A stretch of DNA of 64,000 nt from contig NZ_WQCA01000013.1 in assembly GCF_013032445.1 (NCBI RefSeq), positions 1 through 64,000 of the forward strand. The letters run 5' to 3'. Shown piece by piece: positions 18,717 through 35,224 of the stretch (positions are counted from its first letter, which is position 1; every line of letters starts with the position of its first letter). The position numbers and the translations under genes were made by a program. The stretch comes from Ruegeria arenilitoris. GTDB taxonomy: Bacteria > Pseudomonadota > Alphaproteobacteria > Rhodobacterales > Rhodobacteraceae. The notes under the pieces are model-generated. The model had not been told where the DNA came from. It was given only the letters and a program-made list of their open reading frames with translations, and did no database searches.

Positions 18717-18766
18717 TTTTTAGAAATTTTATATAAAATCCTCTGAAATGATGCCGGTACTAAGCT

Positions 18767-20068: not shown

Positions 20069-20105
20069 CGCAAATTAGTTCCTTGAGTTCTCAAGCTGAA
20101 TTCGG

Positions 20106-20150
20106 AGAAAGAAAAGCGGGCAGCGACACATATCGAATGCGCGCTGCCCG
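20106..20150 (-). terminator. Intrinsic terminator of the MDR gene
   Basis: CGGGCAGC ... GCTGCCCG with an 18-base loop at 20117-20150. Read on the minus strand it is followed by GCTTTTCTTTC, a T-rich tail, so it ends the transcript of the minus-strand gene at 20175-21161. Confidence 0.75.
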
Positions 20151-20174
20151 ACAGGTTGGTTTTGGTGCAGTGCT

Positions 20175-21161
20175 TCAGAGTTCGACAACGACCTTGCCGA
20201 TGGCTTGGCCACTGGTCAGGCGATCATAGGCATCACCGACCTGTTCAAACCCGAAGCGCTGGTCATCAAGCAGTGGCCTCAATGCGCCTGCGTCTACGAT
20301 TTCGGCTAATTTAGCCAGGATCGCGCCATGCTCATCACGCTTGTGGTCGTGTATCATCGGGATCAGCATGAAGATGATGTGCAGTGACAGGCCTTTGAAA
20401 TGTGCTGGAGTAAGGTCCAGTTCGACCAAAGCGACGGTCGAGGCGATGTTCCCGTTCAGCGCTGCTGCCTCGAAGGAGTTGGTCATGTTTGGGCCGCCAA
20501 CCGAGTCAAAGATGGTCTCGAAACCTGCACCGGCAGTGTGTTCCTCGACATAGTCTGCGACCTTCTCCTTCATGAAATCGATTGCCGTCGCACCGTAGCT
20601 CTCGATCACTTCAAGTTGCGACGAACCGGTTCCGGTTGCGAAGACGTCTGCACCAATATGCTTGGCAAGTTGCACGGCTAAGTGACCGACTCCACCGGCA
20701 CCACCTTGCACCAGAACCTTCTGACCTTCTTGAGCACCTGCGCGGGTCAGCCCCTCATAGGCAGTAATGCCGACCAGCGGGATCGCAGCAGCTTCTCGCA
20801 TCAAAAGGGACTTGGGTTTGTGTGCAATAAGACGCGCATCAGCGACCATGTATTCAGCCAGTGCGCCCTGTAGCTCCAGTAGACCGCCAGCACATCCGTA
20901 AACCTCGTCGCCTACCTTGAAGCCACTCACGCCGTCCCCAACGGCCTCGACAGTTCCGGCAAAGTCCATACCCAGAACAGCGGGTAGTTCTGGCGAGAGA
21001 GGGAGATCCGTGCCCATCGCGCGGATCATAGTATCCACTGTGTTCACGCTGGTGGCTGCAACGCGCACGACAACATGGCCGGGCTTGGCAGTCGGCGTTT
21101 CAATTTCGGCAAGTTCGAACTTTGCGTTCTCGCCGTATTCAACAAGGGTCATTGCTTTCAT
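20175..21161 (-). CDS. Zinc-free MDR oxidoreductase (quinone oxidoreductase-like)
   Basis: Medium-chain dehydrogenase/reductase with the NADPH motif VQGGAGGVGHLAVQLAKHIG and the family segments GMDFAGTVEAVGDGVSGFKVGDEV and AIPLVGITAYEGL. The cysteines that bind structural or catalytic zinc in alcohol dehydrogenases are absent, so it fits quinone oxidoreductase or enoyl reductase types. The ATG at 21161 is chosen because CGGAGATGCCC lies ahead of it; longer starts have no such site. It is divergent from the dehydrogenase operon at 21486 and may share its control region. Confidence 0.85.
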   Translation of the reverse strand: MKAMTLVEYGENAKFELAEIETPTAKPGHVVVRVAATSVNTVDTMIRAMGTDLPLSPELPAVLGMDFAGTVEAVGDGVSGFKVGDEVYGCAGGLLELQGALAEYMVADARLIAHKPKSLLMREAAAIPLVGITAYEGLTRAGAQEGQKVLVQGGAGGVGHLAVQLAKHIGADVFATGTGSSQLEVIESYGATAIDFMKEKVADYVEEHTAGAGFETIFDSVGGPNMTNSFEAAALNGNIASTVALVELDLTPAHFKGLSLHIIFMLIPMIHDHKRDEHGAILAKLAEIVDAGALRPLLDDQRFGFEQVGDAYDRLTSGQAIGKVVVEL

Positions 21162-21340
21162 TGGGCATCTCCGGATGGATGTTTGACGGCTCATACGTAG
21201 ATTGAACACACAGCAGGATAAATTGACCCAAATCGGAGTTCAGTTTTCCGATTCTGAGAATAATCTGAATGAATCTCCAATATCGATTTTGGTAAGCGAC
21301 CTCATGTGGTGGTCGTGGTTGCTTGAGGGCTATCGTCTCA

Positions 21341-21373
21341 AACTGTCTCAAACTGTCTCGGGGTGAGACAGTT
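21341..21373. promoter_or_regulatory. Triple TGTCTC-type operator ahead of the dehydrogenase operon
   Basis: AACTGTCTC occurs twice in a row (21341-21349 and 21351-21359) and is followed five bases later by its exact reverse complement GAGACAGTT (21365-21373). The second and third form a perfect nine-base dyad. It lies about 115 bases ahead of the first dehydrogenase gene and in the gap to the divergent MDR gene. The likely binder is the AcoR-like activator encoded at 31427-33310; this is inference from position and from the dyad sites used by such activators. The remaining 200 bases of the gap show no further clear element. Confidence 0.55.
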
Positions 21374-21485
21374 AAGCAATTGGCGAGATGTAGGGCTAAC
21401 GAGTTCCTTGCCGCATTCAGCACTTCTCGCCAGCCTTCCCAACGAAACATGAGCGACATCATGATCGCATGCTTGGGAGGAGCGC

Positions 21486-22472
21486 ATGACACCAACTCGC
21501 GAAGAACAGCATTGGATGTATCGCAATATGGTCACGAGCCGCCGGTTCGAAGAAACCATTGCGGGCATCTATTTCGAGGGTAAAACGCCCGTTTTTAATA
21601 TGGCTAACGGACCAATACCTGGGGAAATGCATCTCAGCGACGGTCAGGAGCCGGTCGCCGTTGGCGTATGTGCGCACCTAAATTCCGATGACGTCGTAAC
21701 AGCGACGCATCGCCCTCACCATCAAGCGATCGCCAAGGGTGTCGACCTCGACAAAATGGCAGCCGAAATCTTTGGGAAAAAGACGGGCCTGTCCGGTGGA
21801 CGCGGCGGTCACATGCACATCTTTGATGCCGACGTGAACTTTGCCTGCTCCGGGATCATCGCCCAAGGCATGGGGCCAGCTATAGGCGCGGCTCTTTCCC
21901 GGAAGATGCAAAACAAACCCGGAGTTGCGGTCGCGTTTGTTGGCGAAGGCGCAGTCAACCAGGGCGGATGGCATGAAGCCATGAACTTGGCCGCCGTTTG
22001 GAATCTGCCCTTTGTCTGCGTGATCGAAGACAATGCATGGGGCATCTCCGTTTCCAAAGAAGCCTCAACAGCAGTAACGAACAATGCAGATCGCGCTGCG
22101 GCTTACGGCATCCCCGGAAAACGCATCGAAGGTAATGATCCATTCGCGATCTATGACGCAGCCGGAGAAGCCATATCGCGCGCACGCGCTGGCGAAGGTC
22201 CAACCCTTCTGGAAATCGAGACATATCGCCTGGCAGGGCATTTCATGGGAGATGCCGAAGGCTATCGGCCAGAAGGCGAAAAGGACGCGCTTTTCGAAAA
22301 GGATCCTATTCCGAAGATGCGGGCCAAAATGCTTGCCGATGACGCAGCCACCGAAGCTGAGCTCGACGCAATCGAAGCCGAAAGCGCGGCACGCGTCGAG
22401 GCCGCAATCAAATTCGCCCGGGAAAGCGAAGAGCCAGCACCTGAAGATGCGCTGACAGCAGTCTTTGCCTGA
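21486..22472 (+). CDS. Acetoin-type 2-oxo acid dehydrogenase E1 alpha
   Basis: Thiamine-diphosphate E1 alpha subunit, 328 residues. The cofactor motif runs from VGEGAVNQGGWHEAMNLA to VIEDNAWGISV, and GGRGGHMHIFD with RLAGHFMGD are family hallmarks. Start ATG is preceded by GGGAGGAGCGC. The closest known type is the E1 alpha of acetoin dehydrogenase, though branched-chain and pyruvate enzymes are related. First gene of the eleven-gene plus-strand run; its stop lies 16 bases before the E1 beta start. Confidence 0.85.
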   Translation: MTPTREEQHWMYRNMVTSRRFEETIAGIYFEGKTPVFNMANGPIPGEMHLSDGQEPVAVGVCAHLNSDDVVTATHRPHHQAIAKGVDLDKMAAEIFGKKTGLSGGRGGHMHIFDADVNFACSGIIAQGMGPAIGAALSRKMQNKPGVAVAFVGEGAVNQGGWHEAMNLAAVWNLPFVCVIEDNAWGISVSKEASTAVTNNADRAAAYGIPGKRIEGNDPFAIYDAAGEAISRARAGEGPTLLEIETYRLAGHFMGDAEGYRPEGEKDALFEKDPIPKMRAKMLADDAATEAELDAIEAESAARVEAAIKFARESEEPAPEDALTAVFA

Positions 22473-22488
22473 GCTGGAGGGAGGAAAA

Positions 22489-23508
22489 ATGAACAAACCA
22501 AACGAAAGAAAGCTGACGATAGCCCGAGCTATGGCCGAGGCGATGCAGCAGGAAATGAAGATTGACCCTTCCGTTTTCGTGATGGGTGAAGATATCGGTG
22601 CACTGGGCGGGGTTTACGGCAATACGCGCGGCCTCTTGGACGAGTTTGGCTCCGAACGGGTTCGCGACACTCCAATCTCGGAAACAGCGTTTATTGGTGC
22701 CGCAGTTGGTGCAGCCCAGGACGGGATGCGACCGGTCGTAGAATTGATGTTCGTGGACTTCTTCGGCGTTTGCTTTGACGCGATCTACAATCTAATGGCC
22801 AAGAACATCTACTTCTCGGGCGGCAACTTCAAAGTACCGATGGTGCTGATGACTTCGACCGGCGGCGGCTACTCGGACGCTGGTCAGCACTCGCAATGTG
22901 TCTACGGCACCTTTGCCCATTTACCGGGCATGAAAGTCGTGGCTCCTTCTAACGCTTACGACGCCAAAGGGCTGATGACGGCAGCAATGCGTGACGATAG
23001 CCCCGTGGTCTACATGTACCACAAAAGCCTTCAAGGCATGGGGTGGTTAGGTACCGAGGCCGGAGCAACAGTTCATGTTCCCGAGGAAAGTTACACCGTT
23101 GAAATCGGCAAGGCCAAAGTGGTTCGCGAAGGTTCAGATGTCACCATTGTTAGCCTTGGAATGGGCGTTCACAACGCATTGAAGGCGGCTGCCAAGCTGG
23201 AAGCGCAAGGCGTCAGTGCCGAAGTTGTGGACCTCGTCAGCCTCGTGCCGCTGGACCGAGAATCGATTCGCGCCTCGGTGGCCAAGACCGGCCGACTGAT
23301 CGTCGTTGACGAAGACTACATGAGTTATGGCGTCTCCGGTGAAATCATCGCGACAGTTACAGAGCATGACATCTCGGTGCTGAAAGCTGCGCCCAAGCGG
23401 ATCGCGTTCCCGGATGTGCCGATCCCGTTCTCTCGCGTCATGGAGCAACACTGCTTGCCGAACCCGGACAAGATCGTCGCAGCCTGGAACGACATAAAAG
23501 CCGCCTGA
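22489..23508 (+). CDS. Acetoin-type 2-oxo acid dehydrogenase E1 beta
   Basis: E1 beta subunit, 339 residues: VFVMGEDIGALGGVYGNT, the cofactor-side ETAFIGAAVGAAQDGMRP, and DLVSLVPLDRESI with DEDYMSYGVSGEI in the transketolase C-terminal domain. The ATG at 22489 is chosen for the GGGAGG seven bases ahead. Together with the E1 alpha gene it would decarboxylate a 2-oxo acid or cleave an alpha-diketone/acetoin-like substrate and pass the acyl group to the free lipoyl protein encoded next. Confidence 0.87.
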   Translation: MNKPNERKLTIARAMAEAMQQEMKIDPSVFVMGEDIGALGGVYGNTRGLLDEFGSERVRDTPISETAFIGAAVGAAQDGMRPVVELMFVDFFGVCFDAIYNLMAKNIYFSGGNFKVPMVLMTSTGGGYSDAGQHSQCVYGTFAHLPGMKVVAPSNAYDAKGLMTAAMRDDSPVVYMYHKSLQGMGWLGTEAGATVHVPEESYTVEIGKAKVVREGSDVTIVSLGMGVHNALKAAAKLEAQGVSAEVVDLVSLVPLDRESIRASVAKTGRLIVVDEDYMSYGVSGEIIATVTEHDISVLKAAPKRIAFPDVPIPFSRVMEQHCLPNPDKIVAAWNDIKAA

Positions 23509-23579
23509 TCCACACACCATTGGAAACCATCAAGCACGGGGCAGCACATTGCGGCCCCGAACAAGGAAGGAGTGCCTAA

Positions 23580-23813
23580 ATGGCAACTGATATCACTATC
23601 CCTTCGGATCTATGGGACGAGGACGAGGAAACCGTCATCACAAGCTGGCTGGTTGATGATGGATCTACCGTCGAAGAAGGTGCCCTGATCGCCGAAATTA
23701 TGACGGCCAAGGTTCAGTATGAAATCCTTGCCCCGGCATCTGGGACCGTAAGCATCAAAGAAGAGGCCGATGCTGTCGTCGCCAAAGGCGCCGTGATCGG
23801 ATCGATAGAATGA
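23580..23813 (+). CDS. Stand-alone lipoyl-domain protein
   Basis: Only 77 residues: a single lipoyl/biotinyl domain with the modified lysine in IMTAKVQYE (Lys44) and the paired half-sheets around it. In ordinary 2-oxo acid dehydrogenases this domain is fused to E2. Here it is a separate acyl carrier, and its stop overlaps the start of the E2 catalytic gene by four bases (ATGA), so equimolar translation is likely. AAGGAAGGAG precedes the ATG. Confidence 0.9.
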   Translation: MATDITIPSDLWDEDEETVITSWLVDDGSTVEEGALIAEIMTAKVQYEILAPASGTVSIKEEADAVVAKGAVIGSIE

Positions 23814-24490
23814 GCGGCGAAGTGAAAACTGTCCCGCTCAAGGGTGTGCGCGGGATGATCGCTGACGCGATGGTGAAAAGCCTGCAGACAGCTGCTCAGC
23901 TGACGCATCAGGGCAGCGCCGACGCGACCGCTCTTTTGGCGGAAAAGGCCCGGTTGGCCGAGGCAGGAACCAAGGCTTCGGTTGAGGATCTTTTGATGTC
24001 AGCGGTCATCCGCGCTTTGAAAAAGAACCCAGACGCCAATGGCAGAGTAGAGGGAAAAGACGTCAAAGTTTTTAGCGCAATCGATCTGTCGGTTGCGATT
24101 GCCTTGCCAGGCAACTTGTTGGTCGCACCAGCGATCTTTGGTGCGGGTGAGATGGATGTTTCTGAACTTAGGGCGGCGCGACAAGACCTTGCCGCTCGGG
24201 CAAAGACCAACAAGCTCAGCGTTACAGAAATGACTGGCGGCACGTTCACTGTCAGTAATCTTGGATTGACCAGGGTCGAGCACTTCACACCAATCATCAA
24301 TGCCCCGCAAATCTGCATTTTGGGTATTGGGCGCCTTACTGACAGGGCGGTTCGAAGCGAAGATGCCGGCATCGAGCTGCGTCCGCATGTGGGCCTGTCA
24401 TTGACTTTTGACCATCGTGCCCTCGACGGGGGCCCGGCGGGCGACCTTCTGACTTCGATATGTGAAGAAATTGAAGGAATGGGCAAATGA
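23810..24490 (+). CDS. E2 acyltransferase catalytic domain without lipoyl or binding domains
   Basis: 226 residues that correspond to the C-terminal catalytic part of dihydrolipoamide acyltransferase: the acyl-CoA region GGTFTVSNLGLTRVEHFTPIIN (shown in part) and the catalytic pair in FDHRALDGG (His202, Asp206). It lacks both the lipoyl domain and the ~40-residue peripheral subunit-binding domain that tethers E1 and E3. It transfers an acyl group from the free lipoyl protein to CoA. Its stop overlaps the ligase start by four bases. The missing tether is the odd feature of this complex. Confidence 0.88.
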   Translation: MSGEVKTVPLKGVRGMIADAMVKSLQTAAQLTHQGSADATALLAEKARLAEAGTKASVEDLLMSAVIRALKKNPDANGRVEGKDVKVFSAIDLSVAIALPGNLLVAPAIFGAGEMDVSELRAARQDLAARAKTNKLSVTEMTGGTFTVSNLGLTRVEHFTPIINAPQICILGIGRLTDRAVRSEDAGIELRPHVGLSLTFDHRALDGGPAGDLLTSICEEIEGMGK

Positions 24491-25197
24491 CCGGCCTTCT
24501 ACGGCAGTTTTCCAGCCCGGCCGAGGGTTTGGCTTTTGAAGCCAAGCTTTTTTCCGCACGGGAATCTGCCGTGGGCCTCTGGGCCAGCGAAAACGATGCA
24601 CTGGTCTGTCCGGCTTCGTATCGTAAATACTACGGTCTCAAGGATGCTTCATCGCATTCGCTGAAGCGCGGTTGGCCGGTCTTTACTCGGCCAACCGGGG
24701 GCGGCGCTGTTCCGCAAGGGTCGGGGGTTGTCAATTTGGCAATCGCTTTCACCGCGCCGCGCGGTTTCACGATCAATGATGGCTATAGGCTGATTACTGG
24801 CATCATCCGCAACGGGCTGGGTTCCACAGGAGTTAGGCTGGCCACAGGTCCAACGCCCACCAGTTTCTGCGACGGCGACTGGAATCTCTCCATTCAGGGG
24901 AAAAAGGTCGTGGGTACGGCGCAGCGCTGGAAGCCGCTTGGTGAAACCAACACCCGGGTTTTGGCGCATGCTCTGATCCTGACCCGAGGCTCAGTTGAAC
25001 CCGGCGCACGGGCAGTAGACGCCTTCAATGCCGACCTTGGATTAGGCGCGGTCTCTTGTGCCGCTCACACGAGTTTGGAGCGTGCCATCGAAAAGAACAT
25101 GCGGGCTCCTCGCGCCCTCGTTCAAGAACTGCACGCAGCTTCAGTTTCAGCTCTGCGATCCATTCAATTCGAGGCACAGAACTGTGTCGCGGCATGA
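24487..25197 (+). CDS. Lipoate--protein ligase A family protein
   Basis: Biotin/lipoate ligase fold, 236 residues, with the substrate loop RPTGGGAVPQGSGVVNLAI and the active-site lysine in QGKKVVGTAQRW. It would lipoylate the free lipoyl protein encoded two genes upstream, and coupling to the E2 gene (ATGA) supports a dedicated enzyme. From sequence I cannot tell ligase (lipoate plus ATP) from octanoyl or amido transfer activity. Confidence 0.83.
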   Translation: MTGLLRQFSSPAEGLAFEAKLFSARESAVGLWASENDALVCPASYRKYYGLKDASSHSLKRGWPVFTRPTGGGAVPQGSGVVNLAIAFTAPRGFTINDGYRLITGIIRNGLGSTGVRLATGPTPTSFCDGDWNLSIQGKKVVGTAQRWKPLGETNTRVLAHALILTRGSVEPGARAVDAFNADLGLGAVSCAAHTSLERAIEKNMRAPRALVQELHAASVSALRSIQFEAQNCVAA

Positions 25198-25250
25198 GCA
25201 AAGACATGAGCCGCAAGAGAAGAGCGGCTTTTGAGAAAAGGGAGGAAAAT

Positions 25251-25613
25251 ATGTCTAACGAAACGATCCACGTTCACCTGAAAGTTGGTGTGCCCACAGA
25301 AAACGGCAGCAAGTTCGAAGACCTCATGACTGAGCTCGTCGCGAGAACTGAAAACGAACCGGGCACTCTGGTTTACGAATGGTATCGAAGCAACGACGGC
25401 AACACTTGGCACATCATAGAAAGATATGCGGACGCTGAGAATGGCGATCTGCATGTGAAAGGGTTTGCCGAAAACTACGCCGGTCGGTTTTTCGAGTTGA
25501 TCGACGGGTGCGAAGCCATCGTATCGGAAAATGCGACGCCATACATCCGCGGCATTCTGGAGGGTATCGCGCCCCTCTACGTCTCTCAGAAAGGCGGGTT
25601 TCACCGCTTCTGA
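25251..25613 (+). CDS. Antibiotic biosynthesis monooxygenase (YgiN-like) domain protein
   Basis: 120-residue ferredoxin-like fold of the ABM/YgiN class: LKVGVPTENGSKFEDLMTEL, EPGTLVYEWYRSNDG and WHIIERYADAEN. The start follows GGGAGGAAAA. Members are quinol monooxygenases, haem-degrading enzymes or small-molecule binders, and some are not enzymes. It sits between the lipoate ligase and the GMC/Tat pair, so it may act on the product of the oxidoreductase. No signal peptide. Confidence 0.78.
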   Translation: MSNETIHVHLKVGVPTENGSKFEDLMTELVARTENEPGTLVYEWYRSNDGNTWHIIERYADAENGDLHVKGFAENYAGRFFELIDGCEAIVSENATPYIRGILEGIAPLYVSQKGGFHRF

Positions 25614-25710
25614 TCCGCGAAGGATCACCTCGATGGAACCTCATCCAGACATCGTCATACCGCTTAGCAGGTCCGAAAGAACGGGCTCAAAATCCAATAT
25701 GGAGGAGAAT

Positions 25711-26304
25711 ATGGATTTCGAAACCAACAATCTCAAAACACCAAAGGCGCAAAAAGTTCAGCTAAGTCGCCGCAGCTTTCTGGTTAAATCAATCTTGGCT
25801 GGGGTGAGTGCAACAGCGGTTGTAGGGACTGCGGGCAACGCCTTTGCTGCAACGCTGAACGAAGATCAGGCAATCACCTTGCTTCAGATCGTTCAAGATA
25901 TCTTCCCACACCCGGACTTTCTGCCGCTGAGCATCTATCAAGATGTTTTGACGGGCGTTCTGACTGAGGCTGATACTTCGGAGGAAACGGCGAAACTCCT
26001 ATCCGACGGTTTGCAGGATCTTAATGCGCGATCTGCCGATCTCCATGGCACTGCCTATGCAGATGTGGATGCTTACGTAAAACGGGAAGCGCTGTTGCGC
26101 ATCATTCAGGACAGCGATTTTTTCCAGAAACTCCGGTGGGCCACCTGGAGCGGCATCTACATCAATCCCGAAGCTTGGCCGCAATTCGGCTATGAGGGCT
26201 CTTCTTGGGAAGAAGGCGGCTACATCGACCGTGGCTACAGCGATGCGACTTGGATTCCGCCCGGCCCGACGCTCGAGGAGCGTTTGAAGGCTGTTGGCAG
26301 GTAA
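25711..26304 (+). CDS. Tat-exported small subunit of a GMC dehydrogenase (gluconate 2-dehydrogenase subunit 3 type)
   Basis: 197 residues. The twin-arginine signal LSRRSFLVKSILAG is at residues 18-31, after a 17-residue polar lead, followed by a hydrophobic stretch and an AFAA cleavage region. The mature part (EDQAITLLQIVQDIFPHPDFLP) fits the gamma subunit of gluconate 2-dehydrogenase and related sorbitol or fructose dehydrogenases, which carries the folded FAD subunit through Tat. The ATG at 25711 is chosen for GGAGGAG ahead of it. It lies 19 bases before the GMC gene. Confidence 0.82.
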   Translation: MDFETNNLKTPKAQKVQLSRRSFLVKSILAGVSATAVVGTAGNAFAATLNEDQAITLLQIVQDIFPHPDFLPLSIYQDVLTGVLTEADTSEETAKLLSDGLQDLNARSADLHGTAYADVDAYVKREALLRIIQDSDFFQKLRWATWSGIYINPEAWPQFGYEGSSWEEGGYIDRGYSDATWIPPGPTLEERLKAVGR

Positions 26305-26323
26305 GAAAGCAGGAGGAAGCACA

Positions 26324-27904
26324 ATGGCTACCCAATTTGAATTGGACGACGACAGCGTGGTCGTCATCGTTGGTTCCGGGGCTGGCGGCGGAACGCTGGC
26401 CAATGAACTTGCTCAAAAAGGCATCTCTTCGGTTGTTCTGGAAGCTGGAGGCGTTTTCGAGTTTGACGACATCGAAAACGATGAATGGGGCATGTTCCTC
26501 AAGCTGACCGATTTCGACAAGCGATATTCGTCAGGGGGCTGGCACGGGGCTCAGAACCACCCGACCTTGCCGAACTGGCTGGTCAAGGGGCTTGGTGGCT
26601 CGACGGTTCATTGGGCGGGTGTTTCGCTGCGCTTCTATGAGCACGAGTTCAAAATGCGCACCGTGAACGGCGCCATACAAAACGCCAATGTAGAAGACTG
26701 GCCGATCACATTGGAAGAGCTGGAACCGTACTACGATCGCGCCGAAATCAAGATGGGCGTAACAGGCAAGGCGACCGGCATGCCGCATCTTCCCTGGAAC
26801 AACGACTTCCGTGTTCTTGCCGAAGGCGCACGCCGTGTTGGTTATACGAAAATCCAATCCGGGCCGATGGCGATTAACTCAGAAGACTATGATGGCCGAC
26901 CGGCCTGTCAACAAATTGGGTTTTGTATGCAGGGCTGCAAGATCGGCGCGAAATGGTCGACCGACATCACGGAAATTCCGGCCGCCGAGGAAACGGGAAA
27001 ATGTGAAGTTCGAACCAATTGTATGGTGTTGAAGATCGAGCACGACGACACCGGCAAAGCCACAGGTGTGGTTTATGCTGATAAAGACGGCAATCACCAT
27101 GTTCAAAAGGCCCGTATCGTCGCTGTCGCTGGCAACTCGATTGAGACCCCACGCCTGCTTTTGAACTCGGCATCGCCAATGTTCCCGGACGGCATGGCAA
27201 ACTCTTCCGGTCAGGTAGGAAAAAACTACATGGTTCACGTTAATGGTGGCGTCTACAGCGAGATGCCGGAACGTGTACATATCCACCGCGGGACCCAGGT
27301 GGCTGGTATCGTTGCCGACGAAGTCCTCAACAATCCCGATCGTGGTTTCACAGGAGGTTATCACCTCGAGAAACTGACTCTTGGCCTTCCGGTTATGTCG
27401 CTATTTCTGAAACGCGGGAACGGAGCCTGGGGCAAGGATTTGGCTGAAGCCTTGGAGAAATATGACTATCTGTCCGGCGTGTACATTGTGGGTGAAGATT
27501 TGGCACAGGAGCAGAACCGCATCACGCTGCATGACACTGAAAAAGACCAGCATGGTCTTCCGGTGCCAATTGTAAGCCGCACGCCACATAACAACGACGA
27601 ACGTATGCTGAAACATGCTTATGGAGTGATGGATAAAATCCATGATGCCGTTGGCGCGAAGGTGACACACCATTTGGCCAAATACCCGGCAAGCCACAAC
27701 ATGGGCACGGCCCGGATGCATGAGGACCCTGACAAGGGTGTCGTGAACAAGTGGGGTCAGGCCCACGATGTTCCGAACCTATTTATTTCGGACGGCAGCG
27801 TATTCACCTCATCCGGTGCGGCCAACCCCACATTGACCATCGTCGCACTGGTCATCCGCCAGGCAGAGTACATCGCGCAAGAGATGAACGCCCAAAACAT
27901 CTGA
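26324..27904 (+). CDS. GMC-family FAD oxidoreductase
   Basis: 526 residues with the FAD motif VIVGSGAGGGTLANELAQKG, the GMC loop LGGSTVHWAGVS, and the C-terminal SHNMGTARM with the catalytic His and NPTLTIVAL with the catalytic Asn. There is no signal peptide; it probably leaves the cell with the Tat subunit encoded just upstream. A cytochrome c subunit, the usual electron acceptor of such dehydrogenases, is not in the cluster. AGGAGGAAGCACA precedes the ATG. It oxidises an alcohol or polyol; the substrate cannot be read from sequence. Confidence 0.87.
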   Translation: MATQFELDDDSVVVIVGSGAGGGTLANELAQKGISSVVLEAGGVFEFDDIENDEWGMFLKLTDFDKRYSSGGWHGAQNHPTLPNWLVKGLGGSTVHWAGVSLRFYEHEFKMRTVNGAIQNANVEDWPITLEELEPYYDRAEIKMGVTGKATGMPHLPWNNDFRVLAEGARRVGYTKIQSGPMAINSEDYDGRPACQQIGFCMQGCKIGAKWSTDITEIPAAEETGKCEVRTNCMVLKIEHDDTGKATGVVYADKDGNHHVQKARIVAVAGNSIETPRLLLNSASPMFPDGMANSSGQVGKNYMVHVNGGVYSEMPERVHIHRGTQVAGIVADEVLNNPDRGFTGGYHLEKLTLGLPVMSLFLKRGNGAWGKDLAEALEKYDYLSGVYIVGEDLAQEQNRITLHDTEKDQHGLPVPIVSRTPHNNDERMLKHAYGVMDKIHDAVGAKVTHHLAKYPASHNMGTARMHEDPDKGVVNKWGQAHDVPNLFISDGSVFTSSGAANPTLTIVALVIRQAEYIAQEMNAQNI

Positions 27905-28027
27905 CGCCACAAGCGCCTCTCCCCGGTGCGGTCAGGCTTTCGGGCCTGGCTGCATTGGAGGCGCTCGGTCTTGCGCGGAAACGGGGTTCGCTTGCCCCGA
28001 AACAGCATCAATCCAAAGGAGGAGAAT

Positions 28028-28618
28028 ATGTTCAAGAAACTCAGTAAACTCGCGTGTGCCACAGCACTGGCACTTGGCCTACCCGCAGTCGCACTTGCCG
28101 AACTGCCAGGCATGCGCGGAACTCAACACATCGGGATCACCGTGCCCGATGTGGACGAAGCCGTCGAATTCTTGGTCGACATCGTGGGGTGCGAGGCGTT
28201 TTTTTCGTTCGGTCCGTTTGGTCCGTTCGAAGATGACTGGATGACAAAAAACCTGAACGTGAACCCGCGCGCGGTCATTGAAGTCATCACAATGGTTCGT
28301 TGCGGAAACGGTCCGGCTTTTGAAGTGTTCAAATACACATCGCCGGACCAGAACCCGAACCCGCCAAAGAACAGCGACATCGGTGGGTATCACATCGCTT
28401 TCTACGTTGATGATATCAACGAAGCGACCCAGTACCTGCGTGACAACGGTGTACAGGTCTTGGAAAGCCCCCACCCGCTGACGGGGACTCTGCTGGAGGG
28501 GATGGACTGGGTCTATTTTCTGACACCTTGGGGCATGCAGATGGAAATCGTCAGCGCGCCCGACGGCATTCTGGACGAAAAGCAAAACAACCGGAATTTC
28601 TGGGACCCGCGCTCCTGA
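28028..28618 (+). CDS. Exported VOC (glyoxalase-fold) protein
   Basis: Sec signal peptide (FKKLSKLACATALALG, cut near ALAE at residue 24), then one vicinal oxygen chelate module pair: MRGTQHIGITVPDVDEAVEFL and DIGGYHIAFYVDDINEATQYL, ending in MDWVYFLTPWGMQMEIV with the metal Glu. The His-His-Glu type metal site looks intact. Periplasmic VOC proteins are unusual; with the exported GMC enzyme next to it, both may act on the same compound outside the cytoplasm. The start follows AAAGGAGGAG. A terminator hairpin comes after it. Confidence 0.82.
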   Translation: MFKKLSKLACATALALGLPAVALAELPGMRGTQHIGITVPDVDEAVEFLVDIVGCEAFFSFGPFGPFEDDWMTKNLNVNPRAVIEVITMVRCGNGPAFEVFKYTSPDQNPNPPKNSDIGGYHIAFYVDDINEATQYLRDNGVQVLESPHPLTGTLLEGMDWVYFLTPWGMQMEIVSAPDGILDEKQNNRNFWDPRS

Positions 28619-28639
28619 AAATAACCCAAAAACGAAAAC

Positions 28640-28672
28640 GGGCTGCGGCATCCCAAGCCGCAACCCTTCTTT
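28640..28672 (+). terminator. Terminator-like hairpin after the VOC gene
   Basis: GGGCTGCGGC, seven-base loop, GCCGCAACCC (one mismatch) followed by TTCTTT. It lies between the VOC gene and the HupE-like gene, so the last two genes of the run may be made at a lower level or partly from readthrough. Confidence 0.7.
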
Positions 28673-28683
28673 AGGAGGCGAAC

Positions 28684-29958
28684 ATGGCTTGGTTGAGCTC
28701 CCCAAAATATACGCGACACCTGCCTATCCCAATGGGTGTTGTAGTTCTCTTACTGGCGCTCTGCTGGTGGCCGCATCGAGGATACGCTCACTTCAGCTAT
28801 TCCGACCCGCGGATCATCCACATTGTTGACGACGGCGGAGACCAAGCACGCGTTCTCATTCGGATGCCCGCTCCGTTGGCTCTGCTTCCGGACGATTGGC
28901 AAGGACAGAACGAAACTCGCTTACCTCCGTTTGGCATCAACAACGGCCCTGACATTTTTCTGGACGCGCATGCGATCGAAAACAACACGTCTGAGCTTTT
29001 GGACATATTGAACCGGTCGGCGTCCATTTGGATTGATGGGCATAGATCAGATACGAAAGTTGAGCAATTTCGGTTCTGGGCCGATACTGAGAGGCCCTCA
29101 TTTGGAACTGTCAAATCTGCGACGGCAGCGTTTCAAGAGGCCGCCCAAACAGATCTGGCAGCATTATCATATTTCAACCTCACAGTAGATGTCGCGCTCT
29201 CGGTCCCATCCGGATCTCTTAATCAGGATCTGCGCGTTACTTCAGATCTTGGTAAGAACTTTCAGGTGATGGACAGGTTTGGAACTGTCGTGAAGCTGCA
29301 TCGCAGCGACACAGTCGAGACACAAGCGATGATTGGAGTGCTGGATGTCTCGTATCCGGCGACTTCAAACAAATGGATCGTTATGCGCGATGCGGCACTA
29401 ATCGGCGCAGAACACATTTACTTTGGGCTTGATCACCTGGCCATAATTGTCCTTATCGCCATTGCCGCACAAAGCTGGCGCCAAGCTCTGGGGATGGCTT
29501 CGGCCTTCACCATCGGACATATGATCACGCTTGCTGCCGGCCTCTACGGCATCGCGCCCGCAACGATCTGGTTCATACCGTTGGTGGAATTTAGCATTGC
29601 ACTCTCGATCGTTGTCGCTGGCGCATTTATTTGCTTTCAGATCAGGCATCCGCTGAATTGGTTGGCGTTGTTCGTCATTGGACTGGTCCATGGCTACGGG
29701 TTTGCCGCCTCTGCGTCTCAGGCGATGTTTGCAGGTCAGTTTGATTTTCTCGACCTGTTAGCATTCGCCTTTGGGTTGGAAGCTTGCCAATTCGCGATCT
29801 ACGCCATGATCTTGCCGATCATCCTTCTGGCAGATCGCCAATTCCCATTGGTGCACGATACGTGGCGCAGAGGTGTGGCTCTGCTCATCGCGGTGTTTGC
29901 CGCGTCGGCTACATTCACCCGCTTTACCGAATCTACAGGTGCTTTTGGCCTAGTTTAG
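28684..29958 (+). CDS. HupE/UreJ-type membrane protein
   Basis: 424 residues: an N-terminal hydrophobic signal (PIPMGVVVLLLALCWW), an extracytoplasmic stretch of about 200 residues, then six or seven membrane segments that carry the HupE/UreJ_2 pattern YFGLDHLAIIVLIAIAAQSW and FTIGHMITLAAGL. Members of this group are poorly understood; some are thought to move metals such as nickel. Nothing in the operon obviously needs nickel. AGGAGG precedes the ATG, inside the tail of the terminator, 24 bases before the E3 gene starts after its stop. Confidence 0.78.
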   Translation: MAWLSSPKYTRHLPIPMGVVVLLLALCWWPHRGYAHFSYSDPRIIHIVDDGGDQARVLIRMPAPLALLPDDWQGQNETRLPPFGINNGPDIFLDAHAIENNTSELLDILNRSASIWIDGHRSDTKVEQFRFWADTERPSFGTVKSATAAFQEAAQTDLAALSYFNLTVDVALSVPSGSLNQDLRVTSDLGKNFQVMDRFGTVVKLHRSDTVETQAMIGVLDVSYPATSNKWIVMRDAALIGAEHIYFGLDHLAIIVLIAIAAQSWRQALGMASAFTIGHMITLAAGLYGIAPATIWFIPLVEFSIALSIVVAGAFICFQIRHPLNWLALFVIGLVHGYGFAASASQAMFAGQFDFLDLLAFAFGLEACQFAIYAMILPIILLADRQFPLVHDTWRRGVALLIAVFAASATFTRFTESTGAFGLV

Positions 29959-29981
29959 GCCGTTCATCACGGAGATCCAAA

Positions 29982-31376
29982 ATGACTGAATCAAAATTCG
30001 ATATGATCGTGATCGGAGCAGGCCCGGGCGGTTATGTTGCTGCAATCCGTGCAGCCCAACTGGGGTTGGATGTCGTTTGTATCGAGCGTGAACACCTCGG
30101 TGGTATTTGCCTGAACTGGGGCTGCATTCCCACAAAAGCACTGCTCCGCTCAAGCGAAGTGCTACACTTGGCGCAAAATGCAAAAGACTTTGGCCTGAAG
30201 ATTGAAGACCCGGAACACGATCTCGAAGCAATTGTCGCGCGGTCGCGGAGGGTCGCCAAACAGCTTTCAAACGGCGTCGGCTATTTGTTCAAGAAGAACA
30301 AGGTGTCGTCCATTATGGGGGAAGCGCGCTTGACCGGAAATGGCGAAGTTATTGTGAAATCCAAAGAAGGAGAGCAGACACTGCGATCGGACAATATCGT
30401 TCTGGCAACCGGTGCACGCGCCAGAGAACTTCCTGGGCTTGAAGCGGATGGGAACCGCGTCTGGTCCTATAAACATGCTCTGCAACCCCCTCACGAACCA
30501 AACAAGCTGCTGGTCATCGGTTCCGGTGCGATCGGCATTGAATTTGCAAGTTTTTACAACGCTATCGGAGCAGAAACGACCGTAGTGGAAGTAATGGATC
30601 GTATTTTGCCTGTCGAAGACGCCGAGATATCGACCTATGCCAAGAAAAGCTTCAGCAAACAGGGCATGAAGTTTTTCGAGGGCTCGAAAGTTACGCAGCT
30701 TGAACGCCACAGCGACCGAGTTGTCGCTCATATCGAAAAAGACGGCGAGGTAACGGTTCAGGAATTTGACACTGTGATTTCAGCTGTTGGCATCACCGGC
30801 AACGTTGAGAACCTTGGCCTCGAAGAGATGGGTGTTGAGATCGACCGAAATCATGTCGTCACAGACGAGTATTGCCGTACCAACATACCCGGCCTCTATG
30901 CGATCGGAGATGTCGCGGGGGCTCCTTGGCTTGCTCACAAGGCAAGTCACGAGGGCGTCATGGTCGCGGAACTCATCGCCGGGCTTGAGGGCCACCCCAT
31001 CAAGCCGGAGAGTATTGCAGGTTGCACGTATTGCCACCCTCAGATCGCGAGCGTTGGTATGACCGAAGCGCAAGCTATTGAAGCCGGATTTGAAATAAAA
31101 GTCGGGCGGTTTCCTTACCAGGGCAATGGCAAAGCCATTGCCCTGGGCGACGCGCAGGGGATGATCAAAACCGTCTTTGATGCCAAAACCGAGCGACTGC
31201 TTGGCGCGCATATGGTCGGGGCCGAAGTGACCGAACTGATTCAAGGATACGTCGTCGGGCAAAAGCTCAATGCAACAGGTCCAGACTTGATGGAAACTGT
31301 ATTTCCGCACCCTACGCTTAGCGAAATGATGCATGAAAGCGCTCTCGACGCTTTCGGTAGAGTCATCCACAAATAG
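29982..31376 (+). CDS. lpdA: Dihydrolipoyl dehydrogenase (E3)
   Basis: 464 residues with FAD motif VIGAGPGGYVAA, redox pair GGICLNWGCIPTK (Cys43, Cys48), NAD motif VIGSGAIGIEFASF and the catalytic His-Glu in HPTLSEMMHE. It reoxidises the lipoyl protein with NAD and completes the complex set out by the E1, lipoyl and E2 genes. I chose the ATG at 29982; the longer frame runs back into the HupE-like gene. Weak Shine-Dalgarno GGAGATCCAAA. Confidence 0.93.
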   Translation: MTESKFDMIVIGAGPGGYVAAIRAAQLGLDVVCIEREHLGGICLNWGCIPTKALLRSSEVLHLAQNAKDFGLKIEDPEHDLEAIVARSRRVAKQLSNGVGYLFKKNKVSSIMGEARLTGNGEVIVKSKEGEQTLRSDNIVLATGARARELPGLEADGNRVWSYKHALQPPHEPNKLLVIGSGAIGIEFASFYNAIGAETTVVEVMDRILPVEDAEISTYAKKSFSKQGMKFFEGSKVTQLERHSDRVVAHIEKDGEVTVQEFDTVISAVGITGNVENLGLEEMGVEIDRNHVVTDEYCRTNIPGLYAIGDVAGAPWLAHKASHEGVMVAELIAGLEGHPIKPESIAGCTYCHPQIASVGMTEAQAIEAGFEIKVGRFPYQGNGKAIALGDAQGMIKTVFDAKTERLLGAHMVGAEVTELIQGYVVGQKLNATGPDLMETVFPHPTLSEMMHESALDAFGRVIHK

Positions 31377-31426
31377 TTCGCTCAACCGCTTGTCGGCAAC
31401 ATTACTTGTTACCGACCTTGCTCATG

Positions 31427-33310
31427 CTAACGGGGTCGCGCGATGCCATATTGTTTCATCTTTCGATGAATGGTTGCGCGGCCCATTCCTATGTTGCGCG
31501 CTGCTCTCGAGACGTTCCATCGGGCACCGATCAGCGCATCCTGAATGAGTGTCTGCTCATCATAGGTCGAATTTGACCGGTCGGAATAACTCTGTCTTGT
31601 CTCTAAGGCCTTGTGTGTTTCTGACACAGATATGGTGCGTTCCGGCAGGTCCAGCCGGGAGATACGACGACCGTCCCCTTCCATAAGCGCTTGCTGCAGG
31701 GCGTTTTTTAGCTCTCGGACATTGCCTGGCCAATCAGAACAGGAGATCAAACTTTTTGCTTCTTCTGTTATTTGAACTGCCTCTCCTGCCAACTGCCGAG
31801 CGATCTCGCCAGCCAAGGTTTCGATGCGTTCACGGTGTCGAAGAGGAGGAAGTTGAACAATCGTATTTGCCAGCAGGAAATAGAGATCATCACGGAACAA
31901 CCCGTCCTGGACGGCAACGCGAAGCGGTTGACGGCACGTTGCTATTATTCTGGGTGTCGGTTCCGAATTCTGCTCTTCGAGTAGCAACCCGTCTGTCTCA
32001 ATTTCACCCATCAGCATCCTGAGTCGAGCCTGCGCCAACTCTGGCAGTTCGTCTACGTTCTCAAAAACCAGAACAATATGTTCCTGGTCTGCTACTCCAA
32101 AGGAACCCGCAATACGCGCTTGCTCAAGCAAGGTCTGAAAGTAAAGTTTGTCCTGTTCAGATTCCCCCAGGGACGCGCAATCCACGGTCGTTACACGTGT
32201 CGTGTCGAACTTGTTAGCTTCAAGGATCGCCGCAATGAGGGCAGTCTTGCCGGTACCGGACTCACCTTCGATTAAGAACGGTAATCCCTTTCTGAAGTGT
32301 GCTTGGGCCCTCGTACAGAGCGCGGACATCCGATCGCTTCCAATCGAAAGCTGGCGTAACGAAGCGGCCAATCGGATACGTTTTGGTCTTTGCGAAGCTG
32401 TAGTCTTTGGGTTTTTCCATGACACTGGAGAAGTGCGCTTATCTCTCTTAGTCAGCGCCGAGAAATTTAGAACTGGCCCATTCATGGACCGAACACTCAT
32501 AACTCTTTCGGGGACGGTTTCCATAGCCTTTGAATCAGTACCGAACACCAATTCAAAGGCCTTCCCTCTTAGTGCCGCGGGAGTCTTTTCACCTACGAGG
32601 CGGTGTGTCCCCGCGGTAGCGCCCAAGATGATCCCGGCTTCGTTCAACGCCACAAGTTCATCCCGCTTCAGCAAGTCGCGCCCATCAGCTGAGGAAACAG
32701 ATATGATTAAACTATCAGCAAACTGTTTTTCGAATAGTACGCGCTGGATTCTGTCTGCTGCGGTGCCCAAAAGCTGAGACGCAAATAGGTAATCTGACGA
32801 GTTATTGCGATCCAGCATAGCCAAGCTGATTGCACCGAGTGTGTGATTTTCGGCGTCAAAAATAGGGGCAGCTGTGCAGGCGAATGGACGCAACGAAGAA
32901 AAGTAGTGGTTTCCTCCGCTAATAGTGAAGGCATCTCTCTCAGATAACGCCATGCTAACACCATTAGTTCCTGCAATGCGCTCATCCCAACAGGAACCGA
33001 CGGCGATGCCGTTTTCTTCAAAAACGGATCGGCCTTGGTCGGCGCCTTCCAGACGAACCGAAACTCCATCGGTATCTGTGACAACAAGGCAATGACCGGC
33101 ATTGGCGGCTATTTGAGCGAGTTGGCTTATTATACCTTGGCGACCGCCGGAACGTTCTACCAATTCCTCTAACCGAGGAGCCACTTCAGATGATTGTAGG
33201 CGAAGGATGGGGCGAGCGGCATCCCGAACAAGCTTGTATTTTAGCTCACAGCGCTCCCAAGATTCACTGATGGCACTTCCAAATTGTAAGGAATTATTGG
33301 TTTCCACCAT
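31427..33310 (-). CDS. AcoR-like transcriptional activator with altered AAA+ domain
   Basis: 627 residues. The N-terminal ~200 are a GAF-like sensor of the AcoR type (GTNGVSMALSERDAFTISGGNHY). The AAA+ domain has Walker A GESGTGKT at about 349-356. The GAFTGA loop needed to contact sigma-54 is missing, and the Walker B Asp-Glu pair is replaced (VLVFENVDEL, about 412-422). The C-terminal Fis helix-turn-helix is intact (NVSRAARNIGMGRATIHRKM). It probably works with the main sigma factor. GGGAGGA precedes the ATG at 33310. It is convergent with the dehydrogenase operon and is its likely regulator. Confidence 0.85.
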   Translation of the reverse strand: MVETNNSLQFGSAISESWERCELKYKLVRDAARPILRLQSSEVAPRLEELVERSGGRQGIISQLAQIAANAGHCLVVTDTDGVSVRLEGADQGRSVFEENGIAVGSCWDERIAGTNGVSMALSERDAFTISGGNHYFSSLRPFACTAAPIFDAENHTLGAISLAMLDRNNSSDYLFASQLLGTAADRIQRVLFEKQFADSLIISVSSADGRDLLKRDELVALNEAGIILGATAGTHRLVGEKTPAALRGKAFELVFGTDSKAMETVPERVMSVRSMNGPVLNFSALTKRDKRTSPVSWKNPKTTASQRPKRIRLAASLRQLSIGSDRMSALCTRAQAHFRKGLPFLIEGESGTGKTALIAAILEANKFDTTRVTTVDCASLGESEQDKLYFQTLLEQARIAGSFGVADQEHIVLVFENVDELPELAQARLRMLMGEIETDGLLLEEQNSEPTPRIIATCRQPLRVAVQDGLFRDDLYFLLANTIVQLPPLRHRERIETLAGEIARQLAGEAVQITEEAKSLISCSDWPGNVRELKNALQQALMEGDGRRISRLDLPERTISVSETHKALETRQSYSDRSNSTYDEQTLIQDALIGARWNVSRAARNIGMGRATIHRKMKQYGIARPR

Positions 33311-33403
33311 GTGTCCTCCCCGTGCCACGAGCTTACAACATTGAGAGCTACTTCGACAAAAAAAACGTCGATGCTCCCGCGGTTTTCCCGCCTGTCCGAG
33401 ATT

Positions 33404-34192
33404 TTACCGCAAGTTGGCTGTGGCCTCTTGGATAGCTTTCATCACAGATATTCTATGGTCTTCATCCATTGCTGCTGCATGGGGTCTGGCCAACTGTCCC
33501 GAGTCGTTGTCGAAGTACTTGCCGGAAGCCTCGGCAAACTCGGGGTCCAGTGCGGCACGGCATAGGATGTCCGCGCCTATGCTCATATCATTTCCTGCGA
33601 CGCCAAACCCCTCTTTCACCATCTTGGAGGCAAGCAGTGAGCCGGGATTCACTGCAATGACAGACGGGCCATTTGGCAGCACTCTTGCTAATTCCTGAGA
33701 CCAAATGGTGATCGCCAGTTTGCTTTGGGCATAGGCCCCAAAATCGTCCAGCGAACCATGACCGACCATAGCCTTTGCATCGACTGGAGCTTGTGCGGCA
33801 GACGAAAGGTTAACAATACGGCCATCTTGCGGGATGATCGACAGCAGCCGTTGCGTCAGCACCCACGGCGCGAACGTATTGACCACAAAGCGAACGTCGA
33901 AGCCATCCGGTGTTCGTGTGATAGGAGTCCTGTAGACGCCAGCATTGTTGATCAGGATATCGATGCGGTCATGTCGCTCAAGAATCTCCGTCGACATCGC
34001 TTCTACATCATTCAGCTTTGAAAAGTCGGCGACATAGCTTTCTGTATGGCCGCCAACTTCTGTTGCAGCCACCTCAAGTTTTGCTTGGTTTCGACCATGC
34101 AACAGAATTCTATGCCCTTGGGCCGAGAGGGTTTTGGCAGTCAAGAGACCGAGGCCGTCGGTCGATCCGGTGATAAGAACTGTCTTAGACAT
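33404..34192 (-). CDS. Short-chain dehydrogenase/reductase
   Basis: Classical SDR, 262 residues: cofactor motif TGSTDGLGLLTAK, NNAGVYRTP, and the catalytic segment with Ser in VNLSSAAQAP and Tyr-Lys in YAQSKLAIT. The Gly-rich motif lacks an obvious NADP-selecting Arg, but this is not decisive. It sits 93 bases ahead of the acoR-like gene on the same strand and could be cotranscribed with it. Substrate unknown. Confidence 0.85.
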   Translation of the reverse strand: MSKTVLITGSTDGLGLLTAKTLSAQGHRILLHGRNQAKLEVAATEVGGHTESYVADFSKLNDVEAMSTEILERHDRIDILINNAGVYRTPITRTPDGFDVRFVVNTFAPWVLTQRLLSIIPQDGRIVNLSSAAQAPVDAKAMVGHGSLDDFGAYAQSKLAITIWSQELARVLPNGPSVIAVNPGSLLASKMVKEGFGVAGNDMSIGADILCRAALDPEFAEASGKYFDNDSGQLARPHAAAMDEDHRISVMKAIQEATANLR

Positions 34193-34331
34193 GGTTCATT
34201 CCTTTGTTCGTAAGCCGGGCTTCGGATGGTTGAGGATGGACTGCCCTTTGAAGTTAGCATTCATCCGGCCTCAAATAACCGAACAATCCCGAAGCTCGCT
34301 TTAGCTATGTGCCTGGCTTTTCCGTAGCTTA

Positions 34332-35111: not shown

Positions 35112-35224
35112 GGCGTTCTCCTTTTTTACAACAATTTCGATCCGCGACCTGGCAGGCGATTTGCGTTCGCGTCGCGACCCTGTTGAGGCTTGCCTTGAAG
35201 ATACGCATTGAAGAAGGAATAAAA

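Follow-up and report, generated by a model that had tools for sequence, protein, structure and literature searches.

A GMC dehydrogenase module within an acetoin-type dehydrogenase operon of Ruegeria arenilitoris: a candidate route for feeding on small alcohols or ketones

Among the described systems closest to the one treated here are those of Methylocella and Methylacidiphilum. Deletion of the GMC dehydrogenase gene Msil_1641 in Methylocella silvestris led to slower growth on propane, no growth on 2-propanol or acetone and the release of acetol, according to the passages of the report that deal with the mutant (PMC7364539). For Methylacidiphilum, the relevant sections of two reports describe the joint induction on C3 compounds of a GMC pair together with a lactoylglutathione lyase and with a lactate dehydrogenase (PMC8630023, PMC12235487). 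Here we analyse a stretch of 64,000 nucleotides (the window; contig NZ_WQCA01000013.1, positions 1 to 64,000) from the 5.24 Mb genome of Ruegeria arenilitoris, in which a GMC dehydrogenase and its small (gamma) subunit lie inside an operon for an acetoin-type E1–E2–E3 dehydrogenase complex. This pairing recurs in other bacteria and suggests, from gene content and sequence, a mode of feeding, so far undescribed, that would use small alcohols or ketones. The novelty is in the combination and not in the protein families. The view that no known acetoin, butanediol or gluconate pathway has this set, put forward in an earlier note on this DNA, held in searches of the open-licence PubMed Central (PMC) literature, where the gene combination was not found described, but not for its GMC step, which is shared with the acetol pathway of Methylocella and Methylacidiphilum.

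The operon comprises 11 plus-strand genes from 21486 to 31376, with intergenic gaps ranging from short overlaps to 123 bp. In order, these encode E1 alpha of a thiamine pyrophosphate (TPP)-dependent dehydrogenase (21486–22472; PF00676, E = 1.7e-71), E1 beta (22489–23508; PF02779/PF02780), a stand-alone lipoyl domain protein (23580–23813; PF00364, E = 8.2e-11), an E2 catalytic core without a lipoyl domain (23810–24490; PF00198, E = 1.3e-57), an LplA/LipL-like lipoyl transferase or ligase (24487–25197; PF21948, E = 6.3e-12), a small YgiN-like ABM protein (25251–25613; PF03992, E = 6.8e-11), the gamma subunit with a twin-arginine translocation (Tat) signal (25711–26304), the catalytic subunit of the GMC dehydrogenase (26324–27904; PF00732, PF05199), a predicted exported VOC metalloprotein (28028–28618; PF13669, PF00903), a HupE/UreJ-2 permease with a periplasmic N-terminal domain (28684–29958; PF13795, E = 2.5e-23) and E3, dihydrolipoyl dehydrogenase (29982–31376; TIGR01350, 559 bits, above the cut-off of 409). 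The five module genes, from ABM to HupE (25251–29958), are complete, lie on a single strand and stand between the LplA-like gene and E3, all as listed in the earlier note. The widest gaps within the module separate GMC from VOC (123 bp) and ABM from gamma (97 bp), the latter with the gamma start placed at 25711 in preference to 25531, the start of the long open reading frame.

With the window GMC as a query against one genome per species, 102 relatives were obtained and the best 80 loci were kept, genes being called in them by a codon-usage gene caller that gives approximate starts. E1 alpha or beta is present in 63 of these best 80 loci, a fraction biased upward because the loci were picked by likeness to the window GMC; the distance from GMC is 5 kb or less in 58 of the 63 and 9.7 kb in the farthest. 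E2 accompanies E1 in 62 of the 63 loci and an AcoR-type regulator does so in 58, and 52 of the 64 GMC-labelled genes at E1 loci share a same-strand run (gaps below 300 bp) with E1 or E2. Judged by name, the hosts fall into what we take to be the Alpha-, Beta- and Gammaproteobacteria. Linkage of the GMC module to the dehydrogenase, which the neighbourhood check proposed in the earlier note thus bears out, extends over three proteobacterial classes and makes one shared pathway likely. The ABM gene is found in five of the 63 E1-linked GTDB loci. Queries for VOC2 (a glyoxalase-I-like protein), for RHH and for D-lactate dehydrogenase each found none in the 63, and a single aldehyde dehydrogenase query found one. 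A butanediol-dehydrogenase-like enzyme occurs in 15/63, in 11 cases between E1 alpha and E1 beta; for the one such enzyme compared with the PDB, the best match is (R,R)-butanediol dehydrogenase (6ie0). A pyrroloquinoline quinone (PQQ) alcohol dehydrogenase occurs in 16/63. The 17 loci without E1 are of several sorts: eight carry VOC2; in five, GMC lies near a contig end (L043, L046, L074, L082, L087), three of these retaining E2 or the LplA-like gene; two (L052, L062) retain VOC, HupE and the regulator; and two (L105, L108) are of none of these kinds.

A survey of 390 Rhodobacterales genomes (E1 alpha at E 1e-90, GMC at E 1e-100), less biased than the GMC-selected set, speaks against an obligate association. 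E1 alpha was found in 21 genomes and GMC in 90 (91 places); six of the GMC places are linked to E1 and are 68–100% identical to the window GMC, while the other 85 are 49–59% identical. The earlier note had named genomes with the dehydrogenase genes but never the GMC/VOC set as one finding that would refute it, and this was borne out in part, though not fully. GMC adjoins E1 in six of the 21 E1 genomes, and in the other 15 (16 stretches fetched, two of them short contigs) no GMC, gamma, VOC, HupE or VOC2 gene was found beside E1. One of the 15 (G034) has a GMC of 56% identity elsewhere; in the remaining 14, no GMC was found at E 1e-100, although two of them carry one of 38% identity at E 1e-40. 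The GMC module is thus a frequent but optional partner, or feeder, of the dehydrogenase, since the latter occurs without an adjacent GMC in 15/21 genomes. E1 beta occurs in six of 398 genomes sampled evenly across the phylum, with GMC adjacent in three (G000, G024, G776). Seven of the E1-only loci (L157–L163) keep the genes from E1 to the LplA-like gene and have a DUF1330 protein next in line (tested in L158), and most also keep the alcohol dehydrogenase (ADH), hydratase-like and short-chain dehydrogenase/reductase (SDR) genes that flank the window operon. DUF1330 stands at the place of the window's ABM gene by clustering in L157–L163 and by Pfam in L158 and L203, all without GMC; in L051 it follows the LplA-like gene in a locus that has GMC.

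The GMC sequences themselves fall into two kinds. In a tree of 106 rows, each of at least 480 residues (IQ-TREE quick search with midpoint rooting, SH-aLRT as the sole support measure and four branches flagged as long), all 65 E1/E2-linked rows and eight of the ten ‘other’ rows are separated, by a branch with SH-aLRT 100, from all 31 VOC2-linked rows and the remaining two ‘other’ rows. The second kind is mostly found in a cassette with the order RHH–VOC2–gamma–GMC, and VOC2 stands beside GMC in 17 of 18 fetched Rhodobacterales loci of the 49–59% class (L173–L187, L189 and L190 listed). A Methylocella tundrae GMC, which represents Msil_1641 here (Msil_1641 and GmcAB are known to us from descriptions), sits in a like gene setting. 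It is 56.5% identical to the window GMC and has the same His/Asn pair and cysteines, and the window GMC falls outside its clade. Its VOC2 neighbour scores 118.8 bits against the GloA model (cut-off 165), close to lactoylglutathione lyase. On the M. tundrae plasmid and on two Azospirillum plasmids, the cassette adjoins a propane-type monooxygenase, and on one Paracoccus plasmid a D-lactate dehydrogenase. Given the published relatives, the cassette reads as a route from acetol through methylglyoxal and lactate to pyruvate; in this predicted role, a Methylocella-like acetol dehydrogenase cassette is common in the order, GMCs of its class occupying 85 places among the 390 genomes. One genome (G255) has a second GMC, of the cassette type.

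The partner complex is nearer to the acetoin enzymes AcoA and AcoB than to pyruvate dehydrogenase (PDH) or branched-chain 2-oxo acid dehydrogenase (BCKDH), as judged by sequence comparison. The window E1 alpha and E1 beta share 43% and 47% identity with their counterparts in one curated acetoin locus, compared with 37% and 41% for PDH and 27% and 38% for BCKDH of the window's own genome, in agreement with the acetoin-type complex of the earlier note. An E1 beta tree, which carries a long-branch warning and in which two aco loci were each entered twice under two locus ids, is consistent with acetoin E1 as the nearest relative, far from the PDH and BCKDH of R. arenilitoris. NCBIfam and Pfam names of the window E1 proteins give no E1 substrate. 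The acetoin E2 model NF011457 was not reached by either E2 component (lipoyl protein 34.8 bits against a cut-off of 307; E2 core unlisted); in a profile search of 41 genomes with this model, one hit was above the cut-off and the others were lower-scoring and mostly partial. The same split E2 is seen on a haloarchaeal plasmid (Halobaculum limi, L204:10976–14025), where E1 alpha, E1 beta, lipoyl and E2 genes follow one another, with an E1 beta 61% identical to that of the window and an AMP-binding enzyme and an ABC transporter nearby.

The GMC subunit shares features with FAD-dependent sugar dehydrogenases. Its best PDB match is the FAD-glucose dehydrogenase 6a2u (E = 2.6e-52), with fructose dehydrogenase large subunits also among the closest. 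A role in gluconate or glucose oxidation was considered and dropped: the operon has no sugar-pathway genes, and the GMC is about 50–60% identical to cassette GMCs, the PDB sugar enzymes being distant. His and Asn have catalytic roles in GMC enzymes, and the corresponding H458 and N501 are kept in 106/106 rows. Three cysteines (C195, C201, C205) that align with those of 6a2u, and which we take to be iron–sulfur ligands, are present in 105/106 rows (65/65 E1-linked, 31/31 cassette, 9/10 other). A Tat-type RR motif (SRRSF in the window protein) occurs in 75/79 gamma subunits, as the exported oxidation proposed in the earlier note would lead one to expect. The conservation of the cysteines together with this motif makes an exported GMC enzyme with an iron–sulfur cluster likely. 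The gamma subunit itself resembles known small subunits weakly at most. It matches PF13618 (Gluconate_2-dh3) with E = 0.0012 and 19.6 bits, below the cut-off of 23.4, and a PDB sequence search with it gave no match. The best fold match of its AlphaFold2 (AF2) model, with a mean predicted local distance difference test score (pLDDT) of 76.7, is the fructose dehydrogenase small subunit 8jej_B (Z 5.3 and 4.9, root-mean-square deviation (r.m.s.d.) 3.5 and 4.2, 84 aligned residues for 8jej_B), although Z values of this size can arise without kinship in helical proteins. Foldseek found nothing for this model at E 0.001 or better, the fructose dehydrogenase small subunit coming first with E 1.9. No cytochrome c gene is present among the 11 genes from 21486 to 31376, which agrees with the missing cytochrome c subunit remarked on earlier, and a cassette-type cytochrome c query found none in the 63 E1 loci. 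Another small cytochrome c gene occurs in 8/80 loci, adjoining a PQQ enzyme in seven of those eight. Electrons may pass to quinone or to a cytochrome encoded elsewhere, and both remain candidates.

Two further products of the module are the VOC protein and HupE. The window VOC protein has a Sec-type signal peptide by eye and retains H34, E99, H122 and E173 in 37/37 rows; we take these H/E/H/E residues to be metal ligands, as in glyoxalase I. Its AF2 model (pLDDT 82.7) has a VOC fold, and nickel glyoxalase I (1f9z) is among the best fold matches (Z 12.4, r.m.s.d. 3.2, 125 aligned residues). The fold says nothing on function, however, because 1f9z is tied with VOC proteins of other function. HupE occurs in 20/80 loci and directly adjoins VOC in all 20, and VOC occurs without HupE in 16/36 loci. 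In HupE, A35-H36 is found in 21/23 rows, the remaining two having been called from later starts; with the cleavage site placed by eye here, the mature N-terminal domain is likely to start with His after a likely signal peptide. HupE of Rhizobium functions in nickel transport. A natural guess for the window kind is that HupE supplies the VOC protein with its metal. Four more distant HupE-like matches (26–33% identity) are present in the R. arenilitoris genome (G000: C9, C26, C27). In a Ruegeria relative (L234:7181–11174), VOC lies between a fused E1 (722 residues; PF00676 + PF02779 + PF02780) and E2, with transporter-like and ADH/SDR genes nearby, and one further VOC relative adjoins a TPP-enzyme gene. 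VOC is thus found repeatedly with TPP enzymes, though not with these alone: VOC relatives adjoin fused E1/E2, a TPP-enzyme gene and also an aromatic monooxygenase.

These observations can be assembled into a plausible mechanism resting on an association that is real, wide and optional. We tentatively favour, at somewhat less than an even chance, an oxidise-then-cleave catabolism of a short hydroxyketone, the first step of which is backed by the mutant of a related organism while the second we infer. The gamma–GMC enzyme would oxidise acetol and/or acetoin, both candidate substrates, to methylglyoxal and/or diacetyl at the periplasmic face, passing electrons through the iron–sulfur cluster to the respiratory chain. 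The dicarbonyl would then enter the cytoplasm, where E1–E2–E3 would attack its ketone carbon and cleave off the hydrated neighbour. Balanced by hand, methylglyoxal with H2O, CoA and NAD would give acetyl-CoA, formate and NADH, and diacetyl would give acetyl-CoA, acetate and NADH. The complex would thereby replace the glyoxalase/lactate route of related GMCs, and the distribution of VOC2, present in none of the 63 loci with E1 and in 8/17 without, counts for such a replacement. Dicarbonyl cleavage needs no aldehyde dehydrogenase, which is consistent with the one locus in 63 noted above. The VOC protein probably acts on the same hydroxyketone or dicarbonyl, as a racemase, a ketol isomerase or a glyoxalase-like enzyme; HupE would bring its metal, perhaps nickel; and the LplA-like gene would be the complex's own lipoyl attachment gene. 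In other members, the butanediol-dehydrogenase-like or PQQ enzyme could make the hydroxyketone from a diol. The more specific proposal, in which a periplasmic acetol/acetoin dehydrogenase supplies a complex that acts as a dicarbonyl-cleaving dehydrogenase, by CoA-dependent oxidative cleavage of methylglyoxal or diacetyl, we put forward as doubtful. The earlier note had the GMC enzyme oxidise an alcohol, leading to a hydroxyketone or a diketone; we favour the step from hydroxyketone to dicarbonyl over that from diol to hydroxyketone, because the only genetic evidence encountered for the GMC family concerns acetol oxidation. Overall, its interpretation is partly supported.

Several observations weigh against oxidise-then-cleave catabolism. 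The linkage count carries the upward bias already mentioned, and since 15 of the 21 E1 genomes of the order have no GMC nearby, the substrate of the complex is not always GMC-derived. The assignment of Msil_1641 to the conversion of acetol to 2-oxopropanal was made by its authors from the mutant, not from an enzyme assay, as far as the relevant part of the report goes (PMC7364539), and because the Methylocella GMC lies across the tree split, the substrate can be transferred by family only. VOC is found in 32/63 and HupE in 18/63 E1-linked loci, so neither is required everywhere. The VOC signal peptide, seen by eye in most loci, is seemingly absent in Pseudomonas and Stutzerimonas. Only three of 17 VOC places in the Rhodobacterales are within a GMC operon; other VOC relatives occur without GMC, and at least three adjoin an aromatic FAD monooxygenase, accompanied in one case that was tested by an intradiol dioxygenase. 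Finally, flanking hydratase-like, SDR and other genes are shared with the E1 operon of the order and are not explained by the scheme.

An alternative that we consider unlikely, though deserving of serious attention, keeps the order of the earlier note: in the periplasm, the GMC enzyme would convert a diol, either 2,3-butanediol or 1,2-propanediol, into acetoin or acetol, and the complex would cleave this hydroxyketone directly to acetyl-CoA and an aldehyde as in classical acetoin catabolism. The kinship of E1 with acetoin E1, the AcoR-like regulator of 58/63 loci and the butanediol-dehydrogenase-like genes that some members, chiefly Pseudomonadaceae, carry within the operon all suit this scheme. 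Methylmalonyl-CoA epimerase has a VOC-type fold. The acetoin cluster of Pelobacter, in the section of the report that treats it, likewise includes the lipoyl-forming acoS and a protein of the methylmalonyl-CoA epimerase family (PMC3543383). Yet the genetic evidence on a GMC relative is for acetol oxidation, members with a butanediol dehydrogenase or PQQ enzyme still retain GMC, and the aldehyde dehydrogenase that would be called for is present in 1/63 loci by the one query used, although it could be encoded elsewhere in the genome.

It is improbable, in our judgement, that the operon degrades a larger molecule, with the complex cleaving an intermediate produced by the flanking 2-oxoglutarate (2OG)-oxygenase-like, hydratase-like, ADH and SDR enzymes while GMC oxidises a different alcohol of that same catabolism. 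Such a role would account for several flanking genes that accompany the E1 operon in loci of the order, whether or not GMC is present, and for a palindrome (described below) that precedes E1 alpha in both types of locus; but most Beta- and Gammaproteobacterial loci with the E1–GMC core do not keep these flanking genes, Cocleimonas (L075), with its ADH, LysR gene and one more flanking gene, being an exception. Quite improbable is a GMC product that ends as pyruvate or another 2-oxo acid, the complex being a dedicated 2-oxo acid dehydrogenase. E1 beta does align over its full length with PDH E1 beta (closest PDB entry 3duf_B) and E1 alpha does score 302 bits on the PDH model TIGR03182, below its cut-off of 393.85; against this, D-lactate dehydrogenase and VOC2 are both found in 0/63 E1-linked loci, and the window E1 is far from the PDH and BCKDH of its own genome in the tree.

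The more specific proposal of a dicarbonyl-cleaving complex would, if true, describe glyoxalase-independent growth on methylglyoxal, usually seen as a poison, as the last stage in the catabolism of acetol, 1,2-propanediol or butanediol. The preferred reading of hydroxyketone oxidation followed by cleavage would, if true, add a branch to short-chain alcohol and ketone metabolism, with two rival ways of completing a similar first oxidation, by glyoxalase and lactate for one GMC kind and by E1–E2–E3 cleavage for the other. Proteins annotated as ‘GMC family oxidoreductase’, ‘alpha-ketoacid dehydrogenase’, ‘VOC family protein’ and ‘HupE/UreJ’ would be joined in one pathway, which would span marine, soil and freshwater bacteria, and HupE of the ‘anglerase’ layout gains a steady enzyme neighbour in VOC (20/20 loci).

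Control of the operon may involve the palindrome CTGTCTC-N5-GAGACAG (21353–21371), which lies 114 bp upstream of E1 alpha and is, as judged from its sequence and position, a possible operator. It is the sole site in the genome at up to one mismatch, but a backward control pattern also has one, and the case for it is therefore its repeated position and not its rarity. In the window, it is likewise the single site, and 21/100 shuffles also have one at two mismatches. The palindrome is found in 19/228 loci, several of them overlapping, and stands upstream of E1 alpha in relatives with GMC (L032, L033, L035, L053) and without (L157–L161). No second site was found near GMC, which fits transcription from the E1 promoter. 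The 123 bp gap between GMC and VOC (27905–28027, plus strand) is predicted to form a GC-rich RNA hairpin of about 23 pairs, with a minimum free energy (MFE) of −58.5 kcal/mol (z = −3.19) that none of 200 shuffles equalled; it could set different levels for the genes after GMC, perhaps as an mRNA processing or stability element. Convergent with the operon on the minus strand is an AcoR/DhaR-like regulator (31427–33328; PF00158, PF02954; best NCBIfam model DhaR, below cut-off). The GAFTGA pattern is absent from it and from 44/64 related regulators, and present in 20/64; without it, sigma-54 control is doubtful. Some annotated relatives of the regulator are nevertheless named sigma-54 interacting. 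A search of the window for the sigma-54 −24/−12 pattern was uninformative (122 matches, 120.5 expected), and scans of 21000–31700 for sigma-70 promoters (four promoter-like sites, 6.2 in shuffles) and for terminators (15 terminator-like sites, 11.9 in shuffles) were not clearly above chance.

The flanks of the operon (16257–21161 and 33404–36178) hold genes for 2OG-oxygenase-like, SnoaL, enoyl-CoA-hydratase-like, ADH, SDR and LysR proteins and for an unnamed family (34332–35111); the name ‘CmcJ-like’ for the last was dropped, as Pfam gives no family for this protein. Several of these genes persist beside the E1 operon in loci of the order without GMC. On plasmid p2 of Gemmobacter fulvus (L113), a gene for an alkene/propane-type monooxygenase is located some 7.4 kb away from the E1–GMC operon. 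A role of the window operon in propane use was rejected, the propane-monooxygenase query having found none in the 63 E1 loci.

Set beside the systems from which its parts are known, the operon resembles each in some respects and departs from it in others. Its HupE shares with Ang-1, as described in part of PMC12537917, a HupE/UreJ-2 permease behind a periplasmic domain that starts with His after the signal peptide. The Rhodobacteraceae domain of Ang-1 binds Cu (73.6 nM) and Ni (220 nM), according to the same part of that report (PMC12537917, Nat Commun 2025). A PDB sequence search with the window HupE, which bears on kinship to the solved Ang-1 domain, gave no match at E 0.01, and the steady partner of HupE of the window kind is a VOC gene, whereas neither VOC nor glyoxalase is mentioned in the main text of PMC12537917. 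With FAD-glucose, fructose and gluconate 2-dehydrogenases, the operon has in common the GMC subunit, a Tat small subunit and the three aligned cysteines; unlike these, it has no cytochrome c gene, and its small subunit is at most distantly related. The aco operons share with it the order E1 alpha–E1 beta–E2–E3 and an AcoR-like regulator, as well as, in some members of the window kind, lipoyl synthase and butanediol-dehydrogenase-like genes. Unlike that of aco, the window E2 comes as two proteins, one with the lipoyl domain alone and one with the core, both short of NF011457, and the window regulator, unlike the AcoR sigma-54 activators, is without GAFTGA; GMC, gamma and HupE are all absent from one curated aco locus, the 6.2 kb contig L209. 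A further likeness is to Msil_1641 of Methylocella silvestris and to GmcAB of the Methylacidiphilum C3 clusters, with which the window shares a GMC dehydrogenase and its small subunit, as the relevant passages describe them (PMC7364539, PMC8630023, PMC12235487). Those clusters additionally hold a VOC2 that resembles lactoylglutathione lyase, together with genes for a monooxygenase or a lactate dehydrogenase, and the RHH–VOC2–gamma–GMC order of the acetol cassette was not found with E1 (VOC2 0/63, RHH 0/63). The window GMC differs from the GMC of these acetol cassettes in its position across the tree split and in its connection with an E1–E2–E3 complex.

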